Assembly: GCF_004216695.1 (NCBI RefSeq)
Contig: NZ_SGXC01000001.1
Coordinates: 2,728,001-2,792,000 of the forward strand
DNA: 64,000 nucleotides
Direction of reading: 5' to 3'
Origin: Pigmentiphaga kullae
GTDB lineage: Bacteria; Pseudomonadota; Gammaproteobacteria; Burkholderiales; Burkholderiaceae_B
A model generated the notes under the pieces. The model was not told the origin of the DNA. It did no database searches and saw only the letters and a list, made by a program, of their open reading frames with translations. Of the stretch, positions 4,831 to 40,668 are shown one piece after another (position 1 is the first letter of the stretch; the number at the start of each line of letters is the position of its first letter). Both the position numbers and the translations under genes were made by a program.

Positions 4831-5796
4831 CTACAAGCCAGCGTGCGTGAGGTCCTCGCCGAAGATCGGTTCGTCGTAGTGTTCGAGTCCAAGCATCCTG
4901 ATCTTTTTGCCCCGCATCTTGACGCATTCATCGATAAAGACATCGAGAGAACGAAGGTTCGCGTCCGCACGATGGACCAGACCTCCTTCTTGAACAATAC
5001 GCCCGCTGTTCAGCCGCAGTCCATGGAGGATGCCAGCGTCGATTTCGCGGCGGACTGCGAAAATCGGCATCAGCGCGACGGCACCCAGACTCATTCTCAG
5101 TAGCCGCTTGGCATACTCGACGTCATTCAATTCAGCCATGATCTGCGGATAGTCATTGTTGCTGCCGAAGACCTGATCGGACATCAGCCGCTGACCCGTT
5201 TTCTCCTCGAAGCGGATGAATGGCCACTCACGCAACTGGTCGATGCTTACGATGCGTCTGCGCGCAAGCGGATGCGCCCTGCCAACGACAAAAACCTGTT
5301 CGACGCTGACCATCGGGGTCGAGATCAGATTGGGATTGGTCTGGGGAAATACGGCGAAGCCGACATCGACGGATCGTTGAAGGACTCGAGTGACCGAGTC
5401 GTCCGTCTGCTCCGTGGCGTGAAAAATCAGGTTCACGCCCCGGTGCTCTGTCACGAACTCTTCAATGAGGTCGCCGTAGACGTAGGCAATGGAAATGTTG
5501 GATCCGGCAATGCGCAATGTGCCGGTCAGCTTGGCTTCCGGCGACTTGTTGAACTCATCTTTGATCTCGCCGATTTCGGCAAAGATTTTTTCGATTGAGG
5601 TCAGCAGTCGAAGACCCGCTGGGGTTGCATAGGTCTTCGGTCTTGCACGTACCAACAATGGCTCGCCAAGCTCATCTTCAAGAGTTCCGATCTGATGACT
5701 CAATGCGGACTTGGTGAGGTTGAGCTGCTTAGCTGCGGTTTGAAAGCTTCCAACCCGCGCAATCAGGCGTAACGCTTCCAGTTGCCGTAACTCCAA
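4831..5796 (-). CDS. LysR-family transcriptional regulator of cluster A
   Basis: A complete 321-residue LysR regulator. The N-terminal winged helix-turn-helix is clear (MELRQLEALRLIARVGSF, then AAKQLNLTKSALSHQIGTLE), followed by an effector-binding domain of two alpha/beta lobes. It is divergent from the cupin gene at 6169 with 372 bp between, the usual layout for a LysR activator controlling an adjacent catabolic operon. The intergenic stretch contains a LysR-box-like repeat at 6084-6103. The effector is probably the substrate or an intermediate of cluster A; this is inference. Confidence 0.88.
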   Translation of the reverse strand: MELRQLEALRLIARVGSFQTAAKQLNLTKSALSHQIGTLEDELGEPLLVRARPKTYATPAGLRLLTSIEKIFAEIGEIKDEFNKSPEAKLTGTLRIAGSNISIAYVYGDLIEEFVTEHRGVNLIFHATEQTDDSVTRVLQRSVDVGFAVFPQTNPNLISTPMVSVEQVFVVGRAHPLARRRIVSIDQLREWPFIRFEEKTGQRLMSDQVFGSNNDYPQIMAELNDVEYAKRLLRMSLGAVALMPIFAVRREIDAGILHGLRLNSGRIVQEGGLVHRADANLRSLDVFIDECVKMRGKKIRMLGLEHYDEPIFGEDLTHAGL

Positions 5797-6168: not shown

Positions 6169-6741
6169 ATGGCAAAGACAACTAAAGAGTTCGTGACCTA
6201 CTGGGGGCCGTCCATCGCTGATTGGGGCAACGGCCCCGATAAGCGCTTCGTCATCGAGCGTGACGAGGAGTTGCTGAAGAACGGCACCGACGGCGGCCGC
6301 AAGATGGAGAAGATCTCGTTGAATGACATCTTCACCGAAGATGTGGTGACGGGCGTTGACATGCAGAACGGATTTTTGCCGCTGGTTCTCTTTGCCAACG
6401 AAGACCTCATCATCGAGGTCGCGAACTGCGACTGCGAGCAAGGCGGCTGGCATCGGAATATGGGTGCCGATGAATGGGCGTTTCAGTACAAGGGGTCCAG
6501 AACGATCCGCTCGGAGACTGGGCCCGTGACGATCAATGAAGGTGAAATGACGGTCATCCCGCGCGGTGTCGCTCACCAGAATGTCGGACACGGACCGAAT
6601 ATCGAGATCACGATCTACTCCAAAAAGCCACTTGTGCGTTTGTGCCCGACCGAGCCAGAGCGCGCGCGCGAGCGTATGCGCATCAAAGATGGCAAGCCGT
6701 TGGTGCCACCTGTGACGTTGGACCAGCCGTTCGACGAGTGA
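6169..6741 (+). CDS. Cupin-domain protein, possible ring-cleavage dioxygenase
   Basis: A 190-residue cytosolic cupin, first gene of cluster A. Cupin motif 1 (GGWHRNMGADEWAFQYKG) supplies likely metal ligands His95 and Glu102; motif 2 (GEMTVIPRGVAHQNV) supplies His136. Motif 1 has HxN where many members have HxH, so the metal site may have three protein ligands, as in 3-hydroxyanthranilate-type dioxygenases. It is longer than a bare cupin. ATG 6169 was chosen over an upstream GTG (6130) because a GGGGA motif precedes it and the protein begins sensibly there. Context suggests opening of an aromatic or N-heterocyclic ring, but a decarboxylase or isomerase role is possible. Confidence 0.7.
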   Translation: MAKTTKEFVTYWGPSIADWGNGPDKRFVIERDEELLKNGTDGGRKMEKISLNDIFTEDVVTGVDMQNGFLPLVLFANEDLIIEVANCDCEQGGWHRNMGADEWAFQYKGSRTIRSETGPVTINEGEMTVIPRGVAHQNVGHGPNIEITIYSKKPLVRLCPTEPERARERMRIKDGKPLVPPVTLDQPFDE

Positions 6742-6825
6742 GGTGAGTGGGCGAGGGGCGTCTTGATCGCGATGTGCGGATCGTGACGTCTTGACGTCCC
6801 TTAATTGACTTCAATGGGGTCTCCA

Positions 6826-7500
6826 ATGGATCAACTGTTTTTCGAGCCTGGCCTCGTCACAACGAGAGAGGGACTTCAAGCGCTAGGGCTAGCCCACAAC
6901 CCGATGACTGCGCTTGTCGTGCCCCGACCGATTGGCTGGATAAGCACGCGCAGTGTTGATGGCGTTCCCAACATCGCTCCGTTCTCGTTCTCGAACATGG
7001 TTTCCCAGAATCCTCCGATGGTCATGTTCTGTGCCAACGCGGTGCATGAGGAGGGCGGGGATAAGGATTCGCTGAAGAACGCGCGGGAGACGGGGGAGTT
7101 TGTCTATAACCTTGCCACCTTCGACTTGCGAGAGCAGATGAACGAGAGTTCTGCGACGCTCAGCCGTCATGTGAACGAGTTCGAGCATGCGGGTTTGACG
7201 GAAGCCGAGTGCCGGTATGTCAGTGCCCCACGAATTCTCGAGTCGCCGGTGTCGCTGGAGTGCAAGGTCGCAAAGATCGTGGATCTTCCGCGTACAAGCG
7301 AAGCAGGGCTACCCAATACCATGACTATCGGGCGAGTGGTGGGGGTTCATCTCCATAAGAGCCTGATCAGGGACGGGTTGGTAGACACGCTCGGCGTCAT
7401 GCCCCTTGCTCGGTTGGGTTACCTCGACTACGGCACATGCGGCAATGTCTTCGTGATGGACCGTCCGGCCAGCCCGGGCCCTGTCTTGCGGAGTTGCTGA
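6826..7500 (+). CDS. Flavin reductase-like FMN-binding split-barrel protein
   Basis: A 224-residue flavoprotein of the DIM6/NTAB (flavin reductase-like) family. The hallmark region is PRPIGWISTRSVDGVPNIAPFSFSN split by its FMN-binding loop, followed by NARETGEFVYNLAT. Start at ATG 6826 is preferred because GGGG lies six bases before it; ATG 6814 lacks such a site. Such proteins either hand reduced flavin to a monooxygenase or act on substrates directly. A second, HpaC-type reductase is encoded at 14935, so this one may have a separate task. The stop overlaps the start of the next gene (TGATG), so it is cotranslated with the ABC transporter genes. Confidence 0.8.
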   Translation: MDQLFFEPGLVTTREGLQALGLAHNPMTALVVPRPIGWISTRSVDGVPNIAPFSFSNMVSQNPPMVMFCANAVHEEGGDKDSLKNARETGEFVYNLATFDLREQMNESSATLSRHVNEFEHAGLTEAECRYVSAPRILESPVSLECKVAKIVDLPRTSEAGLPNTMTIGRVVGVHLHKSLIRDGLVDTLGVMPLARLGYLDYGTCGNVFVMDRPASPGPVLRSC

Positions 7501-8420
7501 TGTCTGCCCAATTCATCATCGAGCAGTTGATGCACGGTGTCGGCTACGGGCTGATGCTGTTTTTGATGGCGGCTGGTCTCACGCTGGTGTTCGGCATCAT
7601 GGACACGTTGAATCTTTCGCACGGCTCGCTGTTCATGGTTGGTGCCTACATCTCATCAACCGTGCACCAGTACATGCACTCGTTCGTCCTCGCCGTGGCA
7701 GTTGCCGTGATCGGAACGATGCTGCTGGCCGCCGTGCTCGAGCGGATATTGTTCCGTCGCCTCTATGCCGCCGACCATCTGGTGCAAGTCGTGGCAACCG
7801 TCGGAGTGATATTCGTGGCGGATAGCCTCGTCATGATGATTTGGGGTGAAGCGCCGTTGATGGCATCGACTCCCCATGCCTTGTCCGGCCCGCTTTATCT
7901 CACCGAAGATTGGCCGTATCCGTCATATCGCTTCGTTGTGCTGGCGGCTGGCCTCGGCGTAGCCGGCCTGCTGTATGTACTGGTGAACCATACCAGACTG
8001 GGAATGCTGGTCAGGGCGGGCGCATCCAACCGTCAGATGGCGGAACTCATGGGACTACGTGTCAAGCGGGTGTTCATGGTCGTGTTCGTGTTGGGCGCAG
8101 CGCTGGCCGGCCTTGCTGGATCCTTGATGGCGCCCATCAGTGCCGTTCAGGTGGGCATGGGAGAGGGAATCATGATCCCGGCATTTGCGGTGATTGTGAT
8201 CGGCGGCATCGGGTCGATGCGGGGTGCCTTGATTGCTGCGCTTCTTGTGGGCGTTGTGGAGGCGCTCGGAAAAATCTTGGGGCCTCCAACGCTCAAGCTT
8301 TGGTTGTCGCCAGCGGTCGTGGCCGACGTTCTACCTTCGTTGACGAGCATGTTGATGTTCCTGTTGATGATAGGCGTACTCATGTTCAAGCCTCGGGGGT
8401 TGTTCCCCGCCCGTGGATAA
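7500..8420 (+). CDS. Branched-chain-type ABC transporter permease (LivH-like)
   Basis: A 306-residue inner-membrane permease of the LivH family with about eight hydrophobic helices. Family segments include LVFGIMDTLNLSHGSLFMVGAY near the start and the conserved cytoplasmic loop MLVRAGASNRQMAELMG that contacts the ATPase. ATG 7500 overlaps the previous stop by one base. It forms a full importer with the LivM-, LivG-, LivF- and LivK-like products that follow directly. In catabolic clusters such importers usually take up aromatic acids or related organic acids rather than leucine. Confidence 0.9.
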   Translation: MSAQFIIEQLMHGVGYGLMLFLMAAGLTLVFGIMDTLNLSHGSLFMVGAYISSTVHQYMHSFVLAVAVAVIGTMLLAAVLERILFRRLYAADHLVQVVATVGVIFVADSLVMMIWGEAPLMASTPHALSGPLYLTEDWPYPSYRFVVLAAGLGVAGLLYVLVNHTRLGMLVRAGASNRQMAELMGLRVKRVFMVVFVLGAALAGLAGSLMAPISAVQVGMGEGIMIPAFAVIVIGGIGSMRGALIAALLVGVVEALGKILGPPTLKLWLSPAVVADVLPSLTSMLMFLLMIGVLMFKPRGLFPARG

Positions 8421-8436
8421 GCGGAGCAATCGCAAG

Positions 8437-9450
8437 ATGGACCTCAGTTTTGAAAGCAGAGCCGCTCGGACAGGGCGGGGCATCGCTGTGAAACGGCGCG
8501 AGCAAAGTCTCGGTGCCTATGGCGCAGTCGTAGCGCTGGTGGTGTTGGCTGTACTGCCGTGGGTACTGCAGGCGCTGGACGCCGACTATTACCTGGGGTT
8601 CGCCAGGCGAGTTCTGATTATTTCTCTGGCGGTCGTCAGCTTGAATCTGCTTATCGGCTACGGTGGTCTGGTGGCATTGGGGCACGCAGGATTCATGGGG
8701 GCAGGTGCCTATACGGTGGCGGCGCTGACCCATGCCGGACATCTGTCGGGGTGGTTGATACTCGCCATCGTGGTTGTGGTCAGCGCCGTGTTATCAGCAG
8801 TGATCGGCCTGGTCTCGCTACGTACTCGAGGCGTTTACTTCATCATGGTCAGCATGGCTTGCGCGCAGTTGCTGTATTACCTTGCAATCGCGTTGCGCGT
8901 GTATGGAAGCGAGGACGGATATACCTTGCCAGAGCCGTTGCAGTTCGGCTTCGGATGGACGACCGCCGATGAAAGCATCTACTACCTCATCGTGCTGGGC
9001 ATTGCGGCCGTGAGCTTTGCAGGGCTGTCGCATTTGCTGAACTCCCGATTCGGCATCGCTCTGCGCGCTGTGAGAGAGAACGAACAACGGATGGTTGCGC
9101 TGGGCTTCCCGGTCAGAACCATTCAGCTCTGGGCATTCATCGTGGCAGGAACCCTTGCAGGTCTGGCGGGTGCCCTCCTGATCGGTCACAACGGCTTTGT
9201 GACGCCTTCTCTGTTGAACTGGAGCCAATCCGCAAACCTGGTAGTGATGCTTGTTCTCGGTGGCATAGGCTACCGCTGGGGGGGCGTGGTGGGCGCAACG
9301 GTGTGGCTGGTTCTCGAAGAAGTGCTGCGGCAAATGACGACACATTGGCATTGGCCGCTTGGGCTGATCCTGATCGGGATCGTTCTGATCGCGCCTCGGG
9401 GTCTGTGCTCTTTGTTGCCCAAGGCATTTGTGGAGAAGCAGCATGGCTGA
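8437..9450 (+). CDS. Branched-chain-type ABC transporter permease (LivM-like)
   Basis: A 337-residue permease of the LivM family and heterodimer partner of the preceding LivH-like protein. Conserved parts are SLNLLIGYGGLVALGHAGF, followed by the loop FGIALRAVRENEQRMVALGF for ATPase coupling and a C-terminal hydrophobic segment ending LIAPRGL. ATG 8437 has GGAG ten bases upstream; a GTG at 8413 overlapping the livH stop is an alternative that adds eight residues. It overlaps the LivG-like gene by eight bases. Confidence 0.9.
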   Translation: MDLSFESRAARTGRGIAVKRREQSLGAYGAVVALVVLAVLPWVLQALDADYYLGFARRVLIISLAVVSLNLLIGYGGLVALGHAGFMGAGAYTVAALTHAGHLSGWLILAIVVVVSAVLSAVIGLVSLRTRGVYFIMVSMACAQLLYYLAIALRVYGSEDGYTLPEPLQFGFGWTTADESIYYLIVLGIAAVSFAGLSHLLNSRFGIALRAVRENEQRMVALGFPVRTIQLWAFIVAGTLAGLAGALLIGHNGFVTPSLLNWSQSANLVVMLVLGGIGYRWGGVVGATVWLVLEEVLRQMTTHWHWPLGLILIGIVLIAPRGLCSLLPKAFVEKQHG

Positions 9451-10201
9451 CCCCTTGCTCAAAGCCGCCCATCTGCATAAGCGCTTCCAGGCCCTACTTG
9501 CAACCGACGACGTCTCTTTGGATGTGATGCCCGGTGAGATTCATGCATTGATCGGTCCCAATGGCGCCGGTAAGAGCACATTGGTGAACCTCCTGGCCGG
9601 CGGGCTGAAGCCTGATTCCGGAACAATCGAGCTGCAAGGTGTGCGCATCGATAGCATGGCGCCCCATCACCGAGTTCATGCAGGGTTGTCTCGGTGTTTC
9701 CAAGTAAGCAGCGTCTTCCGCAACTCGACGGTGCGGGAGAACTTGATGACCGCGGTGCAGGCTGTCTCGTCAATGCCATTGAGACCCTGGGGCGCGCGGC
9801 ACACCCGCTATCTTGAGCTCACCGATCGGGTTGTAGAGCTCGCGGCACAAACCGGCCTTGAGGGCAGCCTGGATATGATCGCCGGCACGCTGCCGCATGG
9901 CGCTCAGCGGCAACTGGATGTTGCGCTAGCGCTAGCCTCTCGTCCGAAGGTCTTACTGCTTGATGAGCCAATGGCAGGCATGGGACCGGATGAATCCGAA
10001 CGCATGGGGAACCTGATCGATCGGCTCAGGGGCGAGATGGGAATTCTCTTGATCGAGCATGACATGACCGCGGTCTTTCGCCTTGCCGATCGAATCACGG
10101 TCCTGGTCAACGGACGCGTCCTGGCCAGCGGGAAGACGGATGCCATCCGCAATAACGCCGAGGTGCGTGCGGTCTATCTCGGGACAGAGGAGGAAGCATG
10201 A
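9443..10201 (+). CDS. ABC transporter ATPase (LivG-like)
   Basis: A 252-residue nucleotide-binding subunit. Walker A is GPNGAGKST (38-46) and Walker B is KVLLLDEPMAGM. The signature motif is degenerate (LPHGAQRQLD in place of LSGGQ), as is common in LivG proteins. The C-terminal segment ILLIEHDM carries the switch histidine. Start ATG 9443 lies inside the livM-like gene; the end overlaps the LivF-like start by four bases (ATGA). Confidence 0.92.
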   Translation: MADPLLKAAHLHKRFQALLATDDVSLDVMPGEIHALIGPNGAGKSTLVNLLAGGLKPDSGTIELQGVRIDSMAPHHRVHAGLSRCFQVSSVFRNSTVRENLMTAVQAVSSMPLRPWGARHTRYLELTDRVVELAAQTGLEGSLDMIAGTLPHGAQRQLDVALALASRPKVLLLDEPMAGMGPDESERMGNLIDRLRGEMGILLIEHDMTAVFRLADRITVLVNGRVLASGKTDAIRNNAEVRAVYLGTEEEA

Positions 10202-10926
10202 GCCACGACGATCTTCTCCGGTGCGAGCGATTGGAGGCACGGTACGGGGCCAGTCAAGTACTGTTTGGAATCGATTTCAACGTTCGCCGTGGCGAAGTGG
10301 TCGCGTTGCTCGGTCGCAATGGCATGGGCAAGAGCACGGCGATCAAGAGCATTCTAGGCTTGCTGCGGACCATCGACGGACAAATCTACTTCGATGGCCA
10401 GCGCGTCGACACCTTGAGCATGGACGTCATAGCCCGTCTTGGCATCGCCATCGTTCCGGAGGGAAGACAGTGTTTCCCAAATCTTACCGTTCATGAACAT
10501 TTGATCGCGTTTGCACGTCACTCTGCTGGAGCGGAAAAGGGCAGGCGTTCGGTCTGGTCTCCCGACAGGTTGTACGCCCTGTTCCCCCGTCTGGCAGAGC
10601 GCAAAAAAAATCTGGGCGGGCAGCTCTCCGGTGGAGAACAACAGATGCTGGCGATCGGTCGCGCGTTGTCCACGCACCCCAAGCTCTTGATTCTCGACGA
10701 GGCCACCGAGGGCCTGGCACCGCTCATCCGAGAACAGATATGGGATTGCCTTCATTTGCTCCGCAAGGAGGGGCAAACCACGCTCGTTGTGGACAAGTAC
10801 GTAGATCGACTTCTCACCGTCGCGGATCGTCACCTGATCTTGGAGCGGGGAAGAATTGTCTGGCAAGGGAACTCAACAGAGCTCTCCGCCGATCGAGACC
10901 TCTGGACCCGCTATTTGGCGCTCTGA
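10198..10926 (+). CDS. ABC transporter ATPase (LivF-like)
   Basis: A 242-residue ATPase, second of the pair. Walker A is GRNGMGKST (39-47), signature LSGGEQQML, Walker B LLILDEATEGL. The switch region reads TTLVVDKYVDR where LivF proteins normally have VEQN, so the segment after Walker B is atypical although the rest is well conserved. The gene is translationally coupled to the LivG-like gene. Confidence 0.9.
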   Translation: MSHDDLLRCERLEARYGASQVLFGIDFNVRRGEVVALLGRNGMGKSTAIKSILGLLRTIDGQIYFDGQRVDTLSMDVIARLGIAIVPEGRQCFPNLTVHEHLIAFARHSAGAEKGRRSVWSPDRLYALFPRLAERKKNLGGQLSGGEQQMLAIGRALSTHPKLLILDEATEGLAPLIREQIWDCLHLLRKEGQTTLVVDKYVDRLLTVADRHLILERGRIVWQGNSTELSADRDLWTRYLAL

Positions 10927-10975
10927 GTTACGCAAGGTCGGTACGTCAAACCAATCAAACATAAGGTAGGCCGAA

Positions 10976-12154
10976 ATGAAAATCAAGAAACTCACGCTGA
11001 CGGTTCTCTGTTCTGCTCTTCTGATCGGTGGCTCTGCCGTGCAAGCGGCGGACAAGATCAAAGTCGGTCTGCTGACGACGCTCTCCGGATCCAACGCCGT
11101 GCTGGGCGTAGACGTCCGAGATGGATTCAACCTTGGTATCAAGCACAGTGGCGACCGGCTGGGAAATCTTCCTGTCGACTTGAGCATCTTGGACGATCAG
11201 TTGAACCCGGAAAGCGGTCGTCAGGCCGCCGAGCGCTTCATCAAGCGGGATCGCGTGGATGTGATGACCGGAGTGGTAGCTGCCAGCGTCCTGTTGCCGA
11301 TACTTCCAGGCATTCTCGCCAGCGACACCATTTATCTGAGTACGAACACCGGGCCCGCAGACTATGCCGGCGCGAAGTGCAACAAGAACTTCTTCGCCGT
11401 GGCCTGGCAGAACGAAGATATCCCGCGAGCGATGGGTGTCTATGCAACGTCCAAGAAAATCGAGCGCGTTGCGATCATTGCCCCCAACTATCCCGGCGGG
11501 CGCGAGTCGCTGACAGGCTTCAAGAACGGATACGGCGGCAAGATCGTCGAAGAGATATACACCAAGCTCAACCAGCTCGACTTCGCCTCCGAATTGACCA
11601 CACTGCGTTCGCTTAAGCCCGATGCCGTGTTCTTCTTCCTGCCTGGTGGCATGGGAGTCAACTTCATCAAGCAATTCCATGCGTCTGGCCTCAGCAAGGA
11701 GGTCGCGCTGCTTGCTCCGGGATTTTCTGCAGACATGGATACCATTCGCGCCGTTGGCGACAGCATGGTCGGACTGCACAACGCATCGCAGTGGGCAGCG
11801 GACCTCGACAACGAGGCTAACAAGCGATTCGTTGCCGACTTTACCAAGACCTACGGCCGGGCTCCAACCATGTACGCCTCGCAAGGATATGACGCTGCTC
11901 GTCTCATCGACAGCGCTGTGCGGGCAGTGGGGGGGAAGATCGAGGATCGCGCTGCGTTGCGGGCGGCGTTGAACAAGGCTGACTTCAAGTCGGTCAGAGG
12001 CAGCTTCCGCTTCAACCGGAACCAGTTTCCGATTCAAGACATCTACACCCGGGTAGTGGTGAAAGACGAAGCCGGGCAAATCGGGAACAAGCTGGTCGGG
12101 ACAATCGTGAAGAACAACGAGGATACGTTCGTTAAAGAATGCTCGATGAAGTAG
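10976..12154 (+). CDS. ABC transporter periplasmic substrate-binding protein (LivK-type)
   Basis: A 392-residue type I periplasmic binding protein. A signal peptide is evident (MKIKKLTLTVLCSALLIGG, cleavage near AVQA-ADK). The mature part begins IKVGLLTTLSGSNAVLG and contains LDDQLNPESGRQAAERFI, both characteristic of the Peripla_BP_6 family. It lies 49 bp after the LivF-like gene and completes the importer. Relatives in aromatic degradation loci bind aromatic acids or lignin-derived compounds; the ligand here is not predictable from sequence alone. Confidence 0.9.
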   Translation: MKIKKLTLTVLCSALLIGGSAVQAADKIKVGLLTTLSGSNAVLGVDVRDGFNLGIKHSGDRLGNLPVDLSILDDQLNPESGRQAAERFIKRDRVDVMTGVVAASVLLPILPGILASDTIYLSTNTGPADYAGAKCNKNFFAVAWQNEDIPRAMGVYATSKKIERVAIIAPNYPGGRESLTGFKNGYGGKIVEEIYTKLNQLDFASELTTLRSLKPDAVFFFLPGGMGVNFIKQFHASGLSKEVALLAPGFSADMDTIRAVGDSMVGLHNASQWAADLDNEANKRFVADFTKTYGRAPTMYASQGYDAARLIDSAVRAVGGKIEDRAALRAALNKADFKSVRGSFRFNRNQFPIQDIYTRVVVKDEAGQIGNKLVGTIVKNNEDTFVKECSMK

Positions 12155-12208
12155 GCGGACGGGAGGGATTTTTGCCCGTAATGAATCAAGAAATTTTGGA
12201 CTCAGACA

Positions 12209-13684
12209 ATGACGCAGGCGGCAAAGACAGGCAGCGATCACTTGAAGGCGCTGCAAGATGGACGTTGGATCTCGATCAACGGTGAAGTGGTCTCCAATCA
12301 TATCGAGCACCCGGCGTTCCGGGCGGCAGTTAAGACGGCCGCAGACCTGTATGACTTCAGTTCTGCGTCGCCCAACCTCGAGAAAATGACGTTTCGATCG
12401 CCGACGTCGGGACGGGCAGTGAGCAGGGCTTGGCAACTTCCCACCACCTACCAGGAACTGGTGGAGCGTCGCCAAGCGCTTGAACAGATCGCCTGCAACA
12501 CCTCTGGATGGGTGGGTAGAACGCCTGATCACGTGGCGTCCACGCTGTCGGCGATGGTGATGGGTATTGACCTGTTTGAGCGTCATGGCGTGAAGCGGGC
12601 CAGTGCTCTGCAAGAGTACTTCACGTGGGCGCGTGACAACGACATCTGGGCGGGCTATGCGATCGTTCCTCCACAGACCGATCGTCAGCCACCGGCCAGG
12701 CAGGGCGACTTTATTAATGCCTCTGTCTGCGATGAAGATAGCGAGGGCATCACGATCAAGGGGGCTCGTCAGTTGGCCACGGGCCTGCCCATGGCGCAAG
12801 AGCTTCTGTTGGGCGCTGTCCAGCCGCTCAAGCCGGGTGACGAGCGGGCAAGCTTCACCGCCATGGTGCCTGTCAATGCGAAGGGCGTGAAGCTGATGTC
12901 TCGTAAGTCTTACGAGCAGCTCGCCGGGTCGACGTTCGACTATCCCCTCTCGTCACGGTTCGACGAGAACGACACGGTCGTTTATTGCGATGAAGTCAAG
13001 ATTCCCTGGGATCGGGTGTTTGTGCACAACGATATACAGATGGCCAGGGCACAGTGGTTCGACATTCCGGTCATGGCTTATCAGAACTACCCCGCGCAGA
13101 TTCGCTTGAGTGTGAAGCTTCGCTTTTTGCTGGGGCTCGCGTATCGGATGGCTCAGGAAAACGGCTTGTTGGCCTTACCGCCGGTTATGGAGACACTGGG
13201 ACAGATGGCCGCGGAGGTGAATGTCGTTCAAGGCATGATCACTGCCATGGAAACGAACGGCGTTCAGTACGGGAAGTACTTCATTCCCAACTCCAGCATT
13301 CAGTACAGCGCGATGGTGTATTCGCAGTCTCTTTATCCAGCCTTCATCGCCCGGATGCGAGAGCTTGCCGGCGGGTCGATGTTGAGCCTGCCGTCATCCG
13401 TTGCGGATTTCACCAGTTCTGCAACGGCCGAGTACGTCGAACGTACCCATGGAACGGCGAAACGTTCCGCCGTGGATCGGGTCAAGCTCTTCAATCTTGG
13501 CTGGGATGCCATTGGTTCCGAGTTCGCCTCGCGCCATGCTCAGTACGAGATCTTCTATTCGGGACCGGCCTTCGGTAACCGTATCCGCAATTACTCCGCT
13601 TACGACTGGGGCCAGGCCACCACGTTGGTTGACAACTTCCTGTCGTCCTACGACGGTCCGGCAGGGCCGGTCCTGGGCGCCTGA
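12209..13684 (+). CDS. FADH2-dependent monooxygenase, HpaB-like
   Basis: A 491-residue oxygenase of the 4-hydroxyphenylacetate 3-monooxygenase (HpaB/PvcC) family, which uses reduced flavin to hydroxylate an aromatic ring. Family marks are the segment GRTPDHVASTLSAMVMG near residue 110, the flavin-binding middle domain and the C-terminal part with RVKLFNLGWDAIGSEF and SGPAFGNRIRNY. Reduced FAD would come from the HpaC-like reductase at 14935, possibly also from the split-barrel protein at 6826. Relatives act on phenols, pyrrole-2-carboxylate and other heterocycles, so the substrate is open. Confidence 0.85.
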   Translation: MTQAAKTGSDHLKALQDGRWISINGEVVSNHIEHPAFRAAVKTAADLYDFSSASPNLEKMTFRSPTSGRAVSRAWQLPTTYQELVERRQALEQIACNTSGWVGRTPDHVASTLSAMVMGIDLFERHGVKRASALQEYFTWARDNDIWAGYAIVPPQTDRQPPARQGDFINASVCDEDSEGITIKGARQLATGLPMAQELLLGAVQPLKPGDERASFTAMVPVNAKGVKLMSRKSYEQLAGSTFDYPLSSRFDENDTVVYCDEVKIPWDRVFVHNDIQMARAQWFDIPVMAYQNYPAQIRLSVKLRFLLGLAYRMAQENGLLALPPVMETLGQMAAEVNVVQGMITAMETNGVQYGKYFIPNSSIQYSAMVYSQSLYPAFIARMRELAGGSMLSLPSSVADFTSSATAEYVERTHGTAKRSAVDRVKLFNLGWDAIGSEFASRHAQYEIFYSGPAFGNRIRNYSAYDWGQATTLVDNFLSSYDGPAGPVLGA

Positions 13685-13705
13685 TCTACATAGCAAGGAT
13701 TCCTC

Positions 13706-14812
13706 ATGCATTTCTTTTTTCCAGACAACTATCGCTGGTCGTACAACACGCTGCTGGCATTCTCCGCCGGAGCCGAAATCGGCGATTTCGGGACCATCCT
13801 GCCGGAACTGAGCAAGAACGTCGGCGACGACGAGGCCTGGCGAGACGGCTGGCTTGCGCTCGCGCATGTTCTCGAAGCACGCGCGCAAGGCAAGACCGGG
13901 ATTACCCGCTCCGAGGACATGTTCCTAGCCAGCCTCTATCACACGATCTCCGAGCACTTCATCAACCCGAATGATCCGCGGCGACTCGAGGGTTACCACG
14001 AGGTGCTGCGGTGCTTTGAGCAGGCGCGGGCCGCTGCACCGTTCAAGATGGAGCGTGTACTGGTCCCTTTCGAGGGCACCACGCTGCCGGCGTACTTCAT
14101 GCCGGCCATCGGTCGGACGGGACCCCGTCCCACGTCAATCTTCGTGTGTGGACTGGATACTACGAAAGAATTGTGGTTCTTGCGTGCACGTGAGCAGTTC
14201 GCGCTGCGCGGCGTGAACTGCCTTTTCCTGGATACCCCAGGGGTGGGGGAGGCGTTGCGTTTGCAGAAGCTCTACACCCGGCATGACTACGAGCGCCCGG
14301 TCGGCGCGGCCATCGATTACCTGCTGACCCGGCCCGAAGTGGACGCTGCCCGCATCGGACTGGTCGGAAGCAGTCTCGGCGGCTATTACGCGGCCAGAGC
14401 AGCGGCTTTCGAGCCCCGTCTGAGAGCGACCATCGCCTGGGGTGCGATCTACGACTATCACCGTGTGTGGGTACAGCGCATGGCCGGTAACGGCGCGTCA
14501 GCCGCTCCGACTTTCCAGCTCATGTTCATCACGGGAAAGAGCACCATGGAGGCCGCCATCGAGCACGTGTCGCAGTTCAAGATCGCCGGCTTTGCAGATC
14601 GGATAACCCAGCCGTTCCTGATCATGCACGGTGCAGAGGACCTCCAGGTACCACTTTCAGACGCCCAGTCTATGTATGAGTCCGTGGCTAGTGAAGACAA
14701 AGAGCTGGTGATCTTCGATGGAAAGAATGGAGGAGCCGCTCACACGCAGTTCGACAACCATCGGCCGGCATTGCATTACGCGGCGGACTGGATGCAGCAG
14801 AAGCTTGCATGA
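13706..14812 (+). CDS. Alpha/beta hydrolase (FrsA/pseudooxynicotine-hydrolase-like)
   Basis: A 368-residue hydrolase with an N-terminal helical region and a C-terminal alpha/beta fold. The nucleophile elbow is G-S-S-L-G with Ser223; the likely acid is Asp in HGAEDLQVP and the base His in GAAHTQFDN. This architecture resembles 2,6-dihydroxypseudooxynicotine hydrolase, which breaks a C-C bond beside an aromatic ring, and the FrsA family. Lying 21 bp after the HpaB-like gene, it probably cuts the hydroxylated intermediate. An esterase role is the alternative. Confidence 0.8.
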   Translation: MHFFFPDNYRWSYNTLLAFSAGAEIGDFGTILPELSKNVGDDEAWRDGWLALAHVLEARAQGKTGITRSEDMFLASLYHTISEHFINPNDPRRLEGYHEVLRCFEQARAAAPFKMERVLVPFEGTTLPAYFMPAIGRTGPRPTSIFVCGLDTTKELWFLRAREQFALRGVNCLFLDTPGVGEALRLQKLYTRHDYERPVGAAIDYLLTRPEVDAARIGLVGSSLGGYYAARAAAFEPRLRATIAWGAIYDYHRVWVQRMAGNGASAAPTFQLMFITGKSTMEAAIEHVSQFKIAGFADRITQPFLIMHGAEDLQVPLSDAQSMYESVASEDKELVIFDGKNGGAAHTQFDNHRPALHYAADWMQQKLA

Positions 14813-14934
14813 GCGGAGCAGCGGGCGGCGGAGTGTGCCGTTGCCTGCTGCGGTTATTCGTCTGGACTCCGGGGCAGGCAGGGCGGTCGATAGGTCACTT
14901 CCTGCGTTCCAGACGTTTTCGAGAGGTGATTGCA

Positions 14935-15450
14935 ATGAGCGAAAGCACAGAATTCGATACCCGTACCTTGCGTAATGCGCTGGGGCATTTCGCCACGGGC
15001 GTCGCTCTGGTTACTGCCAGGGTCGACGGCGTTCGCCTGGCCGCCACGGTCAGCTCGTTCAACTCGGTGTCCCTGAGTCCCCCCCTTGTACTGTTCAGCC
15101 TGGCGAGATCGGCACTCAGCTTCGACATGTGGCGTCGTGCCGAAAAGTTCGCCGTCATGGTGCTGTCAAGTGAGCAGGCTGAGATATCGAGCCGGTTCGC
15201 AAGGGCTGGAAGCGATAAATGGCAGGATGTCGAAGTCGTTCCTGGTATCAATGGATCGCCTTTGGTAGCGGGCGCACTCGCGTGCTTCGAGTGTGGGGTC
15301 TATGCGCGCTATGACGGAGGCGACCACGAGATCATCGTCGGACGTGTAGAACACTTTGAGACCCGTGGCGCTTCCCGCGCGGATCCGTTGATTTTTTTCA
15401 GCGGCGCCTATCGCAGTCTTGCCATGGGCATGGAGCACTCGACGTCGTGA
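14935..15450 (+). CDS. Flavin reductase, HpaC-like
   Basis: A 171-residue NAD(P)H:flavin oxidoreductase, the expected small partner of the HpaB-like monooxygenase. Key segments are LRNALGHFATGVALVTA, VSSFNSVSLSPPLVLFSLA (flavin-binding loop) and the C-terminal DHEIIVGRVE followed by PLIFFSGAYRSL. ATG 14935 follows GAGAGG at good spacing; an upstream in-frame ATG (14809) would add 42 arginine-rich residues not found in the family. Confidence 0.88.
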   Translation: MSESTEFDTRTLRNALGHFATGVALVTARVDGVRLAATVSSFNSVSLSPPLVLFSLARSALSFDMWRRAEKFAVMVLSSEQAEISSRFARAGSDKWQDVEVVPGINGSPLVAGALACFECGVYARYDGGDHEIIVGRVEHFETRGASRADPLIFFSGAYRSLAMGMEHSTS

Positions 15451-15462
15451 CGATCCGACCGT

Positions 15463-16650
15463 ATGTCTGAATCGGAGCCGAGCAGGCTGCCGGGCGTCAC
15501 GCCTGCACTGATCATTCTGCTGGCAATCAATCTGCGCCCCGCGCTCACAAGCGTCGGCCCTTTGATTGAAGACATCCGAGCCTCTACGGGAATCTCGGTG
15601 TCGGAGGCGGGCGTGATCAGCAGCCTGCCTCTTGTCGTTTTTGGAGTCTTTGCGCCATTGGCGCATCTACAAAAGCGCATTGGCGCTGAACGGCTAGTCG
15701 TCGCGGCGCTATTGCTGCTCATTGTGGGACTGCTCGTGCGGTCGTTTGGCTCCGCGTTAGGGCTGTTCGCGGGAACCATTGTGTTTGCTGCCGGCATTGC
15801 CGTGTGCAATGTGGTGGTTCCTGCTTTGATCAAACGGGACTTCCCGAGCCGCATTCAAAGCATGACGACGGTCTACGCTTTTACGCTTGGCGTCAGCGCC
15901 GCCGTCGCGTCTGGATTGTCTGCTCCGATTGCGCACGCGCTGCCGGGAGGTTGGCAGACTGCGCTAGCGATCTGGTGTGCGCCAGCATTGGTGGCCGCGT
16001 ACTTTTGGGGCCTTCAGATTCCCGGTCCGGACGTGGCAACTGCCAACGCTCGATCAGGATCAGATACGCAGCGGCTACCCGTCTGGCATTCACCCGTGGC
16101 CTGGTTCGTGGCCGCGTTTATGGGGCTGCAATCACTGAGCTTCTACGCCGCAATCGCATGGTTTCCCAGCTTTTTACTGCATGAAGGATACGCGCCGATC
16201 GAGGCTGGGGCGCTGGTCACCCTTCTCCAGGTTGCGGGGCTTGTCTCCAGCGTGGGTGCTCCGCAGATACTTAAGCGTCTCGCGAACCAGTCGAGCATTG
16301 CATGTCTCGCATCTGCAGCCATGGTCAGTGCGCTGCTCGGCATGATGTCGATGCCGAAGATGGCGGTTCTGTGGATGATCCTATTTGGGGCTGGGGTGGG
16401 TTGCTCCATGGTGCTTGCTCTCGCGTTCATCGGCCTGCGCAGCGAGAGTCATGGAGAAGCTGCTTCGCTCTCGGTCATGACCCAGTCGCTGGGGTACTTG
16501 CTGGCGGCGGTCGGTCCGCTTTTGCTCGGTGTGTCTTACGACCATACCGGAGGTTGGGCGGTTCCGCTGGCGACCCTCGCGGCGTTGGCAGTGCTACAGG
16601 CGGTTGTCGGGGTCGCAGCAGGGAGAGCGCGGACGCTTTTCGGAAGTTGA
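15463..16650 (+). CDS. MFS transporter, CynX/NimT family
   Basis: A 395-residue inner-membrane carrier with about twelve hydrophobic helices. The opening INLRPALTSVGPLI is diagnostic of the CynX/NimT (YeaN) subgroup of the major facilitator superfamily, whose members move cyanate, nitroimidazoles and related small compounds. It begins 12 bp after the flavin reductase gene, so it belongs to the cluster A operon. Export of a toxic intermediate, or import of a second substrate, are both possible. Confidence 0.85.
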   Translation: MSESEPSRLPGVTPALIILLAINLRPALTSVGPLIEDIRASTGISVSEAGVISSLPLVVFGVFAPLAHLQKRIGAERLVVAALLLLIVGLLVRSFGSALGLFAGTIVFAAGIAVCNVVVPALIKRDFPSRIQSMTTVYAFTLGVSAAVASGLSAPIAHALPGGWQTALAIWCAPALVAAYFWGLQIPGPDVATANARSGSDTQRLPVWHSPVAWFVAAFMGLQSLSFYAAIAWFPSFLLHEGYAPIEAGALVTLLQVAGLVSSVGAPQILKRLANQSSIACLASAAMVSALLGMMSMPKMAVLWMILFGAGVGCSMVLALAFIGLRSESHGEAASLSVMTQSLGYLLAAVGPLLLGVSYDHTGGWAVPLATLAALAVLQAVVGVAAGRARTLFGS

Positions 16651-16869: not shown

Positions 16870-17901
16870 ATGATGGCCTTTCTGAAGAATTGTTGGTATC
16901 TGGCAGCCTGGGATCATGAAATACAAGCGTCAGCGATCCTGGCTCGGAAAATTCTTGATCAGCCGATCGCGTTCTACAGGGATGAGGCAGGGGCTGTCGT
17001 TGCACTACACGATCGCTGTCCCCATCGCTTCGCGCCTCTTAGCAAGGGCAAGCTGGAGGGAGGCGCAGTGCATTGCGGCTATCACGGGCTGGGCTTTGCC
17101 AGTACAGGTAAGTGCATCGTCAACCCACATGGCCCCATCGGCAACAACTTGTCCGTGCCATCGTATCCCACCAAGGAGAAGTACAGAGGTATCTGGATCT
17201 GGATGGGAGATCCCGTGCTTGCCGAGGGTACCGAGCCTCCCTGTCTGCCTTTCTTCGAGGACATCGTTGACTCTGCATATAGCAATGGATATCTCCGAGG
17301 CGAAGCGCATTACATGTTGTTTGTCGACAATGTTCTCGACCTGACGCATACCGACTACCTGCATCCGGACACGCTCGGCGGAGGCTCCTACACACGCACG
17401 CGAGCCACAGTCACCGAGCATGACAAGGGTATGTCGCTGCACTGGCATTGCTGGAACGAGGTGCCCCAGCCGATTCAGCGGATGAATGGGTTGACCGCGG
17501 AGCGTGTCGACTCGTGGACCGAGATCGAATGGAGTGCGCCAAGCATTATGACGATCCGGAACGGCGCGGTCCCTGCGGGGACCCCCGTCGATGAGGGAAA
17601 AAGCTTTCTAGTGGCTCATATCATGACGCCGGAAACGGAGGCGTCGACGCATTACTTCTTCGCGGCGACACGTGATTTCGCTCGCGACGATGCAGAGGTG
17701 AACTCAAAGATCGCGGCCAACCGGGCAAAGATATTTTCTTTGGAAGATCTACCCATGATCGAGGCACAGCAAGCGCGCATGAAGGGGCAGGAGTTCTGGT
17801 CACTCAAGCCGGCGCTGTTGCGAAGCGATGAAGGGGCTGTGCGGGTGAGACGCAGGCTTGACGAGATGATCCGCATGGAGGCGGAAGCAGCAGCTCGATA
17901 G
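16870..17901 (+). CDS. Rieske non-heme iron oxygenase, VanA-like
   Basis: A 343-residue terminal oxygenase subunit. The Rieske [2Fe-2S] ligands are Cys50 and His52 (CPHRFAPLSKG) and Cys69 and His72 (CGYHG). The catalytic iron site follows in the segment DNVLDLTHTDYLH. The length and the C-terminal domain place it with vanillate O-demethylase-type (class IA) oxygenases. A ferredoxin reductase is needed for activity, but none lies next to it; the only candidate in the window is at 29039. The start has an AGAGGAAG ribosome site. Confidence 0.88.
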   Translation: MMAFLKNCWYLAAWDHEIQASAILARKILDQPIAFYRDEAGAVVALHDRCPHRFAPLSKGKLEGGAVHCGYHGLGFASTGKCIVNPHGPIGNNLSVPSYPTKEKYRGIWIWMGDPVLAEGTEPPCLPFFEDIVDSAYSNGYLRGEAHYMLFVDNVLDLTHTDYLHPDTLGGGSYTRTRATVTEHDKGMSLHWHCWNEVPQPIQRMNGLTAERVDSWTEIEWSAPSIMTIRNGAVPAGTPVDEGKSFLVAHIMTPETEASTHYFFAATRDFARDDAEVNSKIAANRAKIFSLEDLPMIEAQQARMKGQEFWSLKPALLRSDEGAVRVRRRLDEMIRMEAEAAAR

Positions 17902-21838: not shown

Positions 21839-22202
21839 CACATGTTGGTTGTCAGTAGGTTGCGTCCCTGTGTTAAGTATGCTGCCGTTGGGGCAGCACC
21901 CATCATTAAGTTCGCTCTACTGTTGAGTAGGCCGCCGAGCAAGCGTCTCAAGCTCACTCCTCATATGGATCAACTACGGTCCCAGCGTCATTGATAAGGC
22001 GGCCTCTTGCCTATTTCAACATCCACCGTCGAGGTACTCGAGCGTGGTGTGGAGATGCTTGCACACATGTGAAATTCCGCAAACAAACTCCAGTTTCTTG
22101 CCCATGTGTGAAGTTCTCCACTTAGTTCTTCAAGAGCATCACCCGGTTCTCTAGACTTCGTCGAATCAATTGCCGCGACGACGGTGCGCTACGAGGGTCA
22201 CT

Positions 22203-24727: not shown

Positions 24728-24758
24728 CCTCAATCATCCCTCAGGGAAATCGGCAGCC

Positions 24759-25712: not shown

Positions 25713-25783
25713 ACAATCGCGCCAACCCATCTCTGGCGTGTTGCGTACTGCCGGAATTCATGAAGCGTAGAAAGGAGACGAGT

Positions 25784-26743: not shown

Positions 26744-26794
26744 CGCTGAAGCTCACTGTGCAATCTGTCTCATTATCTCAAATCAGGATCGAAC

Positions 26795-27886: not shown

Positions 27887-27899
27887 CATCGATGACATC

Positions 27900-28910: not shown

Positions 28911-29038
28911 CGTAGGGAGAGCGCGAACGCTGCAGCGCTATTCCTCGGTCCTTTCGACGGGTGCTGCTGCGCAGTCCTGCTACAACCGCGCGAGCGCCGA
29001 CTTGGGTCATCTGACGAATCCTTTAATCAGAAGCAATC

Positions 29039-29995
29039 ATGAACAGTTCTGCGCGAACGACCGTTGTCGTTCACGCCATTCGCCTAGAGGCGGAAGGCAT
29101 CGTCAGTGTTGAATTACGAGCCGTCCTTGGCGAATCCCTACCGCGGTTCTCGGCTGGTGCGCATCTTGATCTCCACCTACCCAATGACATGGTCCGCAGC
29201 TACTCGTTGTGCAGTAGCCCTGCAGACCGCAGCCGATATGTCGTTGGGGTGATGAATGACCGCAAGAGTCGGGGCGGATCGCGCTACATCCACGAGCACC
29301 TGCGCGTGGGATCCAGAATCGATATTTCGGGTCCGCGCAACCATTTCGAGCTGGACGAGGGGGCCAAAAGTTCAGTGCTGGTGGCAGGTGGAATTGGCGT
29401 TACGCCCATCCTTTGCATGTTCGATAGGCTCCGCGACATCGGCAGACCGGTTGAACTGATCTACTGCGCGAGATCCAGGAGGGTCGCCGCCTTCGTGACT
29501 GAGCTTTCCATGTCCGACTCACCCGTTACTCTGCACTTCGATGATGAGACGGGGCATGCTGCCAGACTGCCTGAACTGTTGAAAGGTCGGGACAGTGACG
29601 CACATTACTACTGCTGCGGCCCTGCGCCGATGTTGGAGGCCTTCGAGGCAGCTTGCCGAGATCTCGGCTACGCGAACGTTCACATCGAGCGGTTCGCCGC
29701 CGCAGACGAGGTCGAGTCGAGTCAGAAGAGTGGGTACGACGTTCACCTGAAGCAGTCTGGGAGAACTTTGAATGTCTTTCCTGGCATCGTACTTCTCGAC
29801 GCGTTGCTGGATGTCGGCATCGATCTTCCCTACAGCTGCCGGGAAGGCATATGCGGTGCATGTGAGGTGAAGGTTCTGGAGGGCACTCCCGATCATCGCG
29901 ACTTCATACTGAGTGAGCGAGAGCGAACCGATGGCAAGGTCATGATGCCGTGCGTCTCAGGGTGCAGGGGAGCCGCTCTGACGTTGGACCTCTGA
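29039..29995 (+). CDS. Class IA oxygenase reductase (phthalate dioxygenase reductase/VanB-like)
   Basis: A 318-residue electron-transfer protein. In order: FMN domain with RSYSLCSSP, NADH domain with VAGGIGVTPILCMFDRL and the CGPAPMLEAF motif, and a C-terminal plant-type ferredoxin with cysteines in YSCREGICGACEVKVLEG plus MMPCVSG. It should supply electrons to the phthalate-dioxygenase-like oxygenase at 22203 and might also serve the VanA-like oxygenase at 16870, which has no local reductase. It starts 128 bp after the extradiol dioxygenase. Confidence 0.92.
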   Translation: MNSSARTTVVVHAIRLEAEGIVSVELRAVLGESLPRFSAGAHLDLHLPNDMVRSYSLCSSPADRSRYVVGVMNDRKSRGGSRYIHEHLRVGSRIDISGPRNHFELDEGAKSSVLVAGGIGVTPILCMFDRLRDIGRPVELIYCARSRRVAAFVTELSMSDSPVTLHFDDETGHAARLPELLKGRDSDAHYYCCGPAPMLEAFEAACRDLGYANVHIERFAAADEVESSQKSGYDVHLKQSGRTLNVFPGIVLLDALLDVGIDLPYSCREGICGACEVKVLEGTPDHRDFILSERERTDGKVMMPCVSGCRGAALTLDL

Positions 29996-30184
29996 GAGCA
30001 CCAATTATTTTCTCTGTATATGCAAGCGGTCCAAAATGAATTGACCCCTGTCCCCGGCAGACAAGATGATGAATCGGCGTATCAACTGCGCACAATGCGT
30101 GGCAAAAAGTTTATCTGATGAGCTCGGCACAATCGCGAGTTCGCTTGGATGACGACTCTATAAATCACTTGCTTGGGGGTAGGT

Positions 30185-31225: not shown

Positions 31226-31421
31226 AGGGGCGGAAGCGTCGAGCCATTATGGGAGAAATATGTAGGTAGTTTTCCCACGTGGAATTGCGCAACTAGAGTG
31301 CCGTGGCGTAGTCGCGAAACTTCACTTGCGAGCGTAGGCGGCTTCGCCACGGTGTAATCAGGACTCACGGACGCTGCATGCTGCAATTGGCAACCGGTCG
31401 CCCGTTTGTGAAGGAGCAATC

Positions 31422-32150: not shown

Positions 32151-32215
32151 CACTGCCTGGCCGGCGGAGCCGTCAGTCAAGCCACTAGGCATCTTTGTCG
32201 CGATGCCAACGTTGG

Positions 32216-33552: not shown

Positions 33553-33569
33553 CTTTCTCCCTCCAATTT

Positions 33570-39338: not shown

Positions 39339-40529
39339 TTATGCACCGGCGAAGCTAGACCAGGCTTCCATCAGTTCCGCACGCTTCTGAAGAAGGTCCC
39401 CCCGCGCGTAGGCCGCTTCAGTTTTATTGCGCAATGTGTGGGCCAACGCAGCTTCCGCTAGTTCGCGCGGGAATGATGTGGTCTCACCAACCCAATCCCG
39501 AAAGGTCGATCTAAAGCCATGTGCTGTGAGGTCGTCTCGGCCCATCCGTTTCAGCAACTGTAGAAGTGCCATGTTCGAAAGGGGCTTTCCAGCTTTGCCA
39601 CCCTCAAAAACGAAAGCAGTGGTTGAGATCGTCTTCTGTTTTTCGAGTAAGGTCAGAGCCGCTAGTGAAAGAGGTACTCGATGTTCTTGGCCTGCCTTCA
39701 TCCGCAAAGCTGGAATCGTCCAAGTTTTGGACTCGAAGTCAACCTCGTCCCAGGTCGCTTCGATCGTCTCGGAGGTTCTCGTTGCAGTCAGAATCAGTAG
39801 TTCCAGGGCGCGTGCTGCGTTGCCGTTAAGTTCCCGCAGCTTCTTCATGAAGGAGGTCAGCTCCTGGTAGGGTAGAGCTGGATGGTGTTCGACCTTCTGG
39901 ACTTTGGACCGCTTGGGTAGCAGATGATCAAGATGGCCTTTCCAGCGTGCGGGGTTCTCGCCTTGTCTATATCCGCGAACCGCAGCCCAGTCGAGCACGG
40001 CTTCAATCCGACCCCGAAGCCGGCTAGCGGTTTCGGTCTTGGTTGCCCAAATTGGCTCTACCGCCTTCATCACCAGAGTCGTGTCGATTTTTGAAGCGGG
40101 CAGCTTTCCAAATACAGGCGAGGCATACGTGTTCAACGTACTTTGCCATTGAGCCGCATGCTTTTCGCTCTTCCAGGCTCTCTCGTGCGTAGCGATGTAG
40201 GCAGTTGCACACTCGTCAAAAGTTTTGCTGTGGAGTTCAAGAAGTTGCTCGGTATGCTTGGCAGCGCTTTTCGACTCGAGAGGATCTTCGCCTGCGAGCA
40301 ATTGCCTGCGGCACTCCAGGGCTTTGGTTCTCGCTTCCGCCAGTGACACGAGATGGGTAGGCCCAAGGCCCATACCGCGCGCCTTGCCTTTTTTCATATA
40401 ACGAAATAGCCACGACTTAACTCCGGCAGCGGTGACCTGTAGATACAGGCCATTGCCGTCGCTGTACAAGCCGGGCTTCGACTGCCTGGTCACTCCCAGG
40501 CTGTTCAGTCGATTTGTGGTGCGTGTCAT
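39339..40529 (-). CDS. int: Tyrosine integrase, P4/DUF4102 type
   Basis: A 396-residue site-specific recombinase. The N-terminal arm-binding domain shows SKPGLYSDGNGLYLQVTAAG and a GLGPTHLVSLAEAR segment. The catalytic residues are Arg in LTATRTSE, His and Arg in HGFRSTFRD, and the nucleophile Tyr in EAAYARGD. ATG 40529 follows GGAGTGA. It reads away from the tRNA-like sequence at 40669, as expected for an island integrase next to its attachment site. It appears intact. Confidence 0.92.
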   Translation of the reverse strand: MTRTTNRLNSLGVTRQSKPGLYSDGNGLYLQVTAAGVKSWLFRYMKKGKARGMGLGPTHLVSLAEARTKALECRRQLLAGEDPLESKSAAKHTEQLLELHSKTFDECATAYIATHERAWKSEKHAAQWQSTLNTYASPVFGKLPASKIDTTLVMKAVEPIWATKTETASRLRGRIEAVLDWAAVRGYRQGENPARWKGHLDHLLPKRSKVQKVEHHPALPYQELTSFMKKLRELNGNAARALELLILTATRTSETIEATWDEVDFESKTWTIPALRMKAGQEHRVPLSLAALTLLEKQKTISTTAFVFEGGKAGKPLSNMALLQLLKRMGRDDLTAHGFRSTFRDWVGETTSFPRELAEAALAHTLRNKTEAAYARGDLLQKRAELMEAWSSFAGA

Positions 40530-40668
40530 GTTCACTCCAACTATCAAAACAACTATCAAATTGATGCTTGCTTTGACAGGATTGCTGTGGATCAGCAGGG
40601 AATGAAAATATTATAACATATTGAATTTATTGGGTATTTTTGTTTTTCTGGAACGTGGTGGAATTTAG

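Follow-up and report, generated by a model that had tools for sequence, protein, structure and literature searches.

Cluster A, the subject of this report, is a set of 11 co-directional genes at positions 6169-16650 of a 64,000-nucleotide window from the 6.22-Mb genome of Pigmentiphaga kullae (the window, i.e., the whole stretch analysed, is C1:2728001-2792000). Together with the Rieske oxygenase gene which follows it, cluster A is read here as an intact and probably horizontally acquired set of catabolic genes, with an aromatic carboxylic acid as substrate, most likely one that is methoxylated and contains nitrogen. We hold this reading with a confidence that falls a little short of even. The route would be aerobic and undescribed; its products may enter an enamidase-like lower module that most genomes of the host genus possess already. 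Among described operons, none with such a gene content was found in the literature searched, which covers the field in part, most subscription journals lying outside.

Gene set and extent of the unit

According to open reading frames and domain profiles, cluster A starts with a cupin gene and ends with the gene of a CynX-like carrier. All 11 frames are intact with a terminal stop only, and the intergenic gaps range from -8 to +122 bases. The likely starts for DIM6, LivH, LivM, LivG and the HpaC-like protein are 6826, 7500, 8437, 9443 and 14935, respectively. Upstream lies a divergent LysR gene; the Rieske gene begins 219 bases downstream. The features are as follows (aa, amino acids).

4831..5796, - strand: putative LysR-type regulator (PF03466, PF00126), divergent from the unit; its role is suggested by position
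6169..6741, + strand: monocupin of 190 aa, putative ring-opening dioxygenase; core gene; H95, E102 and H136 invariant
6826..7500, + strand: DIM6/NTAB-type flavoprotein, putative flavin reductase of the oxygenase (PF01613); core gene
7500..8420, + strand: LivH-type permease (PF02653, BPD_transp_2)
8437..9450, + strand: LivM-type permease (PF02653, BPD_transp_2)
9443..10201, + strand: LivG-type ATPase (PF00005, PF12399)
10198..10926, + strand: LivF-type ATPase (PF00005)
10976..12154, + strand: LivJ-type periplasmic binding protein (PF13458, Peripla_BP_6)
12209..13684, + strand: HpaB-superfamily oxygenase of the R-H-Y clade (PF11794, PF03241); core gene
13706..14812, + strand: FrsA/DHPON-hydrolase-like alpha/beta hydrolase (DHPON, 2,6-dihydroxypseudooxynicotine), Ser223-Asp312-His346 (PF06500); core gene
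14935..15450, + strand: HpaC/FerA/HsaB-like flavin reductase (PF01613, 135 bits; NCBIfam matches under their cut-offs)
15463..16650, + strand: CynX/NimT-like carrier of the major facilitator superfamily (TIGR00896, 337 bits, cut-off 406)
16870..17901, + strand: VanA/DdmC-type Rieske oxygenase, putative O-demethylase (PF19112, PF00355; closest solved structure DdmC)

An earlier note on this DNA had described such a set, in a single direction and with short gaps, and all genes which it named are present and intact. It closed the unit at 16650; the genes up to there stand, the boundary probably does not, and the Rieske gene probably belongs to the unit. The names HpaB and CynX hold as family likeness and are distant labels otherwise: none of the scanned cluster A enzymes reaches an NCBIfam equivalog cut-off (the Liv genes were outside that scan). 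The set was thus real, but a putative O-demethylase, the island setting and a host module at C1:2.42 Mb had been overlooked.

A conserved core in two Alphaproteobacteria

A pattern-based scan with the hydrolase as query, using one genome per species and 84,980 species, returned 18 loci (L numbers are our locus handles). Three of these exceed 60% identity: Sphingopyxis sp. Root154 (L034), Altererythrobacter segetis (L035) and L036. In the first two genomes a stretch of about 7 kb contains hpaB and the genes for hydrolase, cupin and DIM6, in changed order. The identities to the window proteins in Sphingopyxis and Altererythrobacter, respectively, are 66 and 65% for HpaB, 67 and 64% for the hydrolase, 78 and 83% for the cupin and 58% in both for DIM6. 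Because four genes recur together at 58-83% identity in two distant genomes, the core probably works as one unit. On the 3.8-kb fragment L036 the hydrolase gene has an acyl-CoA-dehydrogenase-type C-terminal domain and two glyoxalase-superfamily genes as neighbours.

The Liv genes, the HpaC-like protein and the CynX-like carrier of the window went unmatched both in L034 and in L035 (E 1e-6). Altererythrobacter has a different, RutF/HpaC-type reductase. In the Sphingopyxis cluster DIM6 is the sole PF01613-type protein matched by window queries, which suggests that it is the flavin reductase there.

The core is rare. Cupin orthologs were found in one of 274 genomes of a class sample (the own genome only), two of 347 genomes of the sphingomonad family (L034 and L035) and one of 385 genomes of a wider class sample (L034), with other matches weak and partial throughout; plasmids yielded eight weak, partial matches only.

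The synteny search which the earlier note proposed therefore ended with cupin, HpaB and hydrolase side by side, accompanied by DIM6, in two distant genomes. Its view of HpaB-like oxygenase, cupin and C-C hydrolase as parts of one unit is supported by their co-occurrence, and this synteny also answers the possibility that HpaB-like protein and cupin act in unrelated routes. A place in the core is not supported for importer, HpaC-like reductase and carrier, none being matched beside it in the two relatives. The interpretation given in the note is, as a whole, supported in part.

The last part of the Sphingopyxis stretch encodes an arylmalonate decarboxylase/EutA-type protein (L034, 20160-20954), which by eye looks like a maleate isomerase and adjoins an aromatic-acid carrier.

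Two types of putative O-demethylases

The Rieske protein encoded at 16870-17901 passes the cut-offs of PF00355 and PF19112, and its closest solved structure is DdmC (230 bits). His160, His165 and Asp293 are invariant in four aligned proteins, and we take them to be the iron site. A Rieske gene 67% identical to that of the window is located about 4 kb from hpaB in Sphingopyxis. Since it occurs near the same core, the unit in the window probably extends past 16650 and takes in the Rieske gene. No such Rieske gene was matched in the 17.5 kb of Altererythrobacter, where a DesA-like protein is encoded (NF047633, 516 bits, cut-off 800). Two unrelated putative demethylase types in the same core setting favour a substrate that carries a methoxy group. 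Cluster A is probably better bounded as core plus demethylase; it is a rare catabolic set, probably mobile and made of parts already known.

The HpaB-like oxygenase and its clade

The oxygenase passes the cut-offs of both HpaB superfamily domains (PF11794, 246 bits; PF03241, 160 bits) and remains far from the HpaB equivalogs (TIGR02310, 232 vs. 885 bits; TIGR02309, 232 vs. 480 bits). A review lists Arg113, Tyr117 and His155 as vital for substrate binding in HpaB (PMC10816480). Aligned with Escherichia coli HpaB, the window protein retains Arg113 and has His for Tyr117 and Tyr for His155. This R-H-Y pattern is present in all 12 proteins of at least 39.5% identity, window protein included, and in none of four outgroup proteins near 30%, which show R-Y-H (three) or R-F-H (one); L071 is a partial protein in this alignment, and L145-L148 were taken without neighbours. 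In their alignments the five best solved matches, like Escherichia coli HpaB, have Tyr and His at these two positions.

The neighbourhoods of nine R-H-Y relatives of the window protein were tallied (L071 and L148 left out). In eight of the nine, an amide hydrolase is encoded in the vicinity of hpaB, a count which covers the R-H-Y clade only and has no outgroup control from ordinary hpaB genes. All six plasmid relatives are among them, with an Amidase in L096, L097, L098, L143 and L144 and a CN_hydrolase in L142; in five of the six a small cupin and a DUF2848 protein are encoded as well. The remaining positives are the enamidase-like genes of Sphingopyxis and Altererythrobacter.

A wider proposal is put forward as a speculation on the unlikely side: the R-H-Y proteins would be a family apart, acting by hydroxylation on N-heterocyclic or amino-aromatic acids so that an amide-type bond becomes open to cleavage, and its members would work together with a cupin and an amide hydrolase. 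Cluster A would be the most elaborate form, in which O-demethylation, ring opening by an unclassified monocupin and an aryl-ketone-type C-C hydrolase pass a methoxylated N-heterocyclic acid on to an enamidase/TgnF/succinate-semialdehyde route that the genus for the most part had beforehand; the arrival of the island would then complete a pathway divided between island and core genome. If true, a set of plasmid and chromosomal genes labelled 4-hydroxyphenylacetate 3-hydroxylase act on another substrate class.

A further locus of the own genome (L108, G000:C1:2396263-2402777) encodes a DIM6-like protein (43-47%), an HpaC-like protein, a 42% R-H-Y HpaB paralog and a bicupin-looking protein of 277 aa without Pfam match.

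Cupin, hydrolase and transport proteins

No family of Pfam or NCBIfam reaches its cut-off with the cupin (Cupin_2, 17 bits vs. 27). Two ring-cleaving families were considered and not upheld. As for homogentisate 1,2-dioxygenase, HgmA profiles gave no match up to E 1, and profile comparison with homogentisate dioxygenases aligned 33 columns, confined to the N-terminal half of the latter (probability 79). As for 3-hydroxyanthranilate 3,4-dioxygenase, PF06052 scored 15 bits at a cut-off of 25, and the comparison covered 66 columns at a probability of 21. H95, E102 and H136 are invariant in 10 aligned cupins; seven of the other nine are N-terminal bicupin halves of the genus. Gene position and these conserved residues are why we infer that the cupin opens the ring. 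Several genomes of the genus encode bicupins (L063, L065, L087-L094) that are some 330 aa long and carry an HRN-x(2-3)-DE motif; the one in L065 passes no Pfam cut-off.

The hydrolase has its closest solved structure in 2jbw, 2,6-dihydroxypseudooxynicotine hydrolase (E 7e-26, 94 bits). Ser223, Asp312 and His346, presumably the catalytic triad, are invariant in seven aligned proteins. C-C cleavage is the reaction we would assign to it. For DIM6 the closest solved structure is 3bpk, nitrilotriacetate monooxygenase component B. On a plasmid of Rhodococcus sp. USK13 (L121, 11995-15814) an enamidase-like gene (49%) and an FrsA-like hydrolase gene (32%) are two genes apart, accompanied by a ferredoxin and an oxidoreductase dependent on flavin adenine dinucleotide (FAD), a further joint occurrence of the two families.

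The periplasmic binding protein is closest to 4evq (172 bits), then to 4ey3 (152 bits), which we take to bind hydroxybenzoates. Uptake of an aromatic acid by the importer, as had been claimed before, would fit this likeness. The CynX-like carrier was dropped as a hint of nitrogen: it scores 337 bits with TIGR00896 at a cut-off of 406 and has no match beside the core in the relatives.

The enamidase-like lower module

The sphingomonad enamidase-like protein matches 2vun at E 1e-98. Sphingopyxis also has an AA_synth protein (PF06684) and an aldehyde dehydrogenase which passes the cut-off for succinate semialdehyde dehydrogenase (653 vs. 646 bits). PMC7913881 reports that TgnF, an AA_synth homolog, stimulates succinate-semialdehyde oxidation in trigonelline degradation, and that such a stimulation could not be demonstrated for HcdD. 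In Sulfitobacter a 44% enamidase and two AA_synth genes are placed beside 6-hydroxynicotinate reductase. Agrobacterium vitis and Mariluticola have genes for GntR, AA_synth, enamidase-like, DUF4286 and FAD-monooxygenase proteins, Mariluticola a succinate semialdehyde dehydrogenase gene too; the closest solved structures of the Mariluticola monooxygenase are PnpA and HspB. The host locus at C1:2.42 Mb combines GntR, DUF4286, AA_synth, enamidase-like (79%), FAD-monooxygenase and aldehyde dehydrogenase genes. A 6-hydroxynicotinate reductase homolog was matched neither in the window nor in the C1:2.42 Mb region, L034 or L035.

Probable island setting and neighbouring genes

G+C is 0.52-0.59 over the first 40 kb of the window and 0.66-0.69 past 48 kb. 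An integrase gene is located in the part with the lowest value, and a cupin ortholog is absent from all 10 other genomes of the genus, five of which gave weaker, partial matches only. On these grounds the region of cluster A is likely an acquired island. No tRNA genes were found in the window. Two further features pertain to the island:

29039..29995, + strand: ferredoxin/FAD oxidoreductase, candidate electron donor of the island Rieske oxygenases (PF00111 and weaker reductase domains)
39339..40559, - strand: tyrosine-recombinase integrase, island mark (PF00589, PF22022, PF13356), in the region of lowest G+C (0.52 at 36-40 kb)

The island carries a second aromatic gene set at 22170-34262, comprising a LigXa-type Rieske protein, a Gfo/Idh oxidoreductase, an Amidohydro_2 protein, a LigB-type dioxygenase, a ferredoxin reductase, IclR and an RraA-type protein. 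At 18968-20164 an FAD monooxygenase resembling 3-hydroxybenzoate 6-hydroxylase (310 bits, cut-off 459) is flanked on both sides by tripartite-transporter-type binding proteins.

Proposed route and its alternatives

The following route is conceivable, the order of its second to fifth steps being a guess. The Liv importer would take up the acid. The VanA/DdmC-type oxygenase, or the DesA-like protein in Altererythrobacter, would take off the O-methyl group. The R-H-Y oxygenase would hydroxylate the ring with reduced flavin from DIM6, the HpaC-like protein or both, the monocupin would open the ring, and the FrsA-like serine hydrolase would cleave a C-C bond next to a carbonyl. Enamidase-like amidohydrolase, AA_synth protein (TgnF/HcdD-type) and aldehyde dehydrogenase could finally lead to succinate semialdehyde and succinate; the sphingomonads have these genes inside the cluster, the host has them elsewhere in its genome, and for the host this last step is a proposal. 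If true, a rare transferable operon allows the breakdown of methoxylated acids that probably contain nitrogen.

A methoxylated, nitrogen-containing aromatic acid is the substrate favoured by gene comparison. Nitrogen had earlier been suggested by way of the CynX-like carrier; that basis falls away, and the suggestion gains support from the amide hydrolases beside R-H-Y HpaB relatives and the enamidase-like gene in the sphingomonad clusters.

Several observations weigh against the proposed route. None of the ring-cleaving families fits the cupin, whose structure model is unusable (mean predicted local distance difference test, pLDDT, of 36). Cluster A lacks an amide hydrolase of its own; an Amidohydro_2 gene (26795-27886), roughly 10 kb downstream, belongs to the gene set that follows. 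For the 42% HpaB paralog of the own genome the closest Amidase gene is about 12 kb off, and this paralog was counted as a miss. The host enamidase-like gene is about 0.3 Mb away from cluster A, and the host aldehyde dehydrogenase at C1:2.42 Mb is merely 38% identical to that of Sphingopyxis. Eight of 11 genomes of the genus have the enamidase-like gene at 76-79%, most of them without the core; the island therefore did not bring it in, and a link to cluster A is a proposal. For the same reason (at least 76% in 8 of 11 genomes) the 79% host gene was rejected as proof of a split pathway. Lastly, the enamidase-like proteins of host, L034 and L035 have Q-x-H where those of L121-L125 have H-x-H. Since Gln replaces the first His of HxH, a metal motif found in the Sulfitobacter enamidase, the reaction of the former may differ from that of enamidase.

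The amide hydrolases beside eight of nine R-H-Y relatives, and the enamidase homolog beside 6-hydroxynicotinate reductase in Sulfitobacter, are what speaks against a substrate without nitrogen, i.e., a methoxylated carbocyclic plant or lignin phenol of the syringyl, acetophenone or coumarin type. HpaB and cupin would then open the ring, the FrsA-like enzyme would cut an aryl ketone or ring-cleavage product, and the sphingomonad enamidase-like protein would be a lactone hydrolase. We consider this rival reading unlikely, both as to the substrate and as to these enzyme roles. It agrees with the O-demethylase types in window and relatives, with the LigXa-type Rieske, Amidohydro_2, LigB and RraA genes of the second island set, and with the VOC, FAH, SMP-30 and Rieske genes next to distant hydrolase relatives. 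The L036 hydrolase, with its acyl-CoA-dehydrogenase-type domain and two glyoxalase-superfamily genes, points the same way, as do AA_synth and a cupin-like protein in a 7-hydroxycoumarin operon (PMC7913881).

Some two-component pyrrole-2-carboxylate and anthranilate monooxygenases resemble HpaB. One may think of a close variant of a described pathway, e.g., a route of the nicotine, pyrrole-2-carboxylate or hydroxyanthranilate type. In its favour, the DHPON hydrolase of nicotine degradation is the closest solved relative of the hydrolase, the Sphingopyxis cluster has a dehydrogenase of the succinate semialdehyde type, and two-component monooxygenases for pyrrole-2-carboxylate and anthranilate are cited in reviews. 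No scanned cluster A enzyme meets an equivalog cut-off, however, nor did the partial literature coverage contain a matching operon, and we deem such a variant improbable. More doubtful still is a mosaic, in which importer, cupin, HpaB and hydrolase serve separate routes and were merely gathered on the island. Its appeal comes from importer, HpaC-like protein and carrier being unmatched near the core in L034 or L035, from a cupin outside the ring-cleaving families and from other aromatic genes on the same island. Yet HpaB, DIM6, hydrolase and cupin stay together at 58-83% in three genomes of two classes despite changed order.

Comparison with known systems

With HpaBC, 4-hydroxyphenylacetate 3-monooxygenase, cluster A has the fold family and the two-component layout in common. 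Its HpaB differs by about 30% identity to the Escherichia coli protein, by scores far under the equivalog cut-offs and by the swap at Tyr117 and His155. DHPON hydrolase (2jbw) is the best solved match of the cluster A hydrolase and has an identical triad order, yet at 94 bits it is a distant one. The lower routes of trigonelline and nicotinate degradation (TgnE/TgnF, enamidase) recur in the sphingomonad clusters as genes for a dehydrogenase of the succinate semialdehyde type, AA_synth and enamidase-like proteins, whereas the upper enzymes differ from those of cluster A.

Plasmid clusters with HpaB, cupin, amidase and DUF2848 in Caballeronia NK8, Thioclava, Roseateles and Cupriavidus P-10, for which no characterisation was found, resemble cluster A in an R-H-Y HpaB (45-48% identity), a cupin and a small flavin reductase; three of the four have Liv-type transporter genes within the stretch read. 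They differ in that the cupin is small and of the Cupin_7 type instead of the 190-aa protein, and that Amidase and DUF2848 take the place of hydrolase and Rieske protein.

The closest counterparts, those of Sphingopyxis Root154 and Altererythrobacter segetis, are likewise clusters for which no characterisation was found. They share the core at 58-83% and, in Sphingopyxis, the Rieske gene at 67%. The sphingomonad clusters carry extra enamidase-like, AA_synth, GntR and aldehyde dehydrogenase genes, in Altererythrobacter also the DesA-like gene, whereas the window adds the Liv importer, the HpaC-like protein and the CynX-like carrier.

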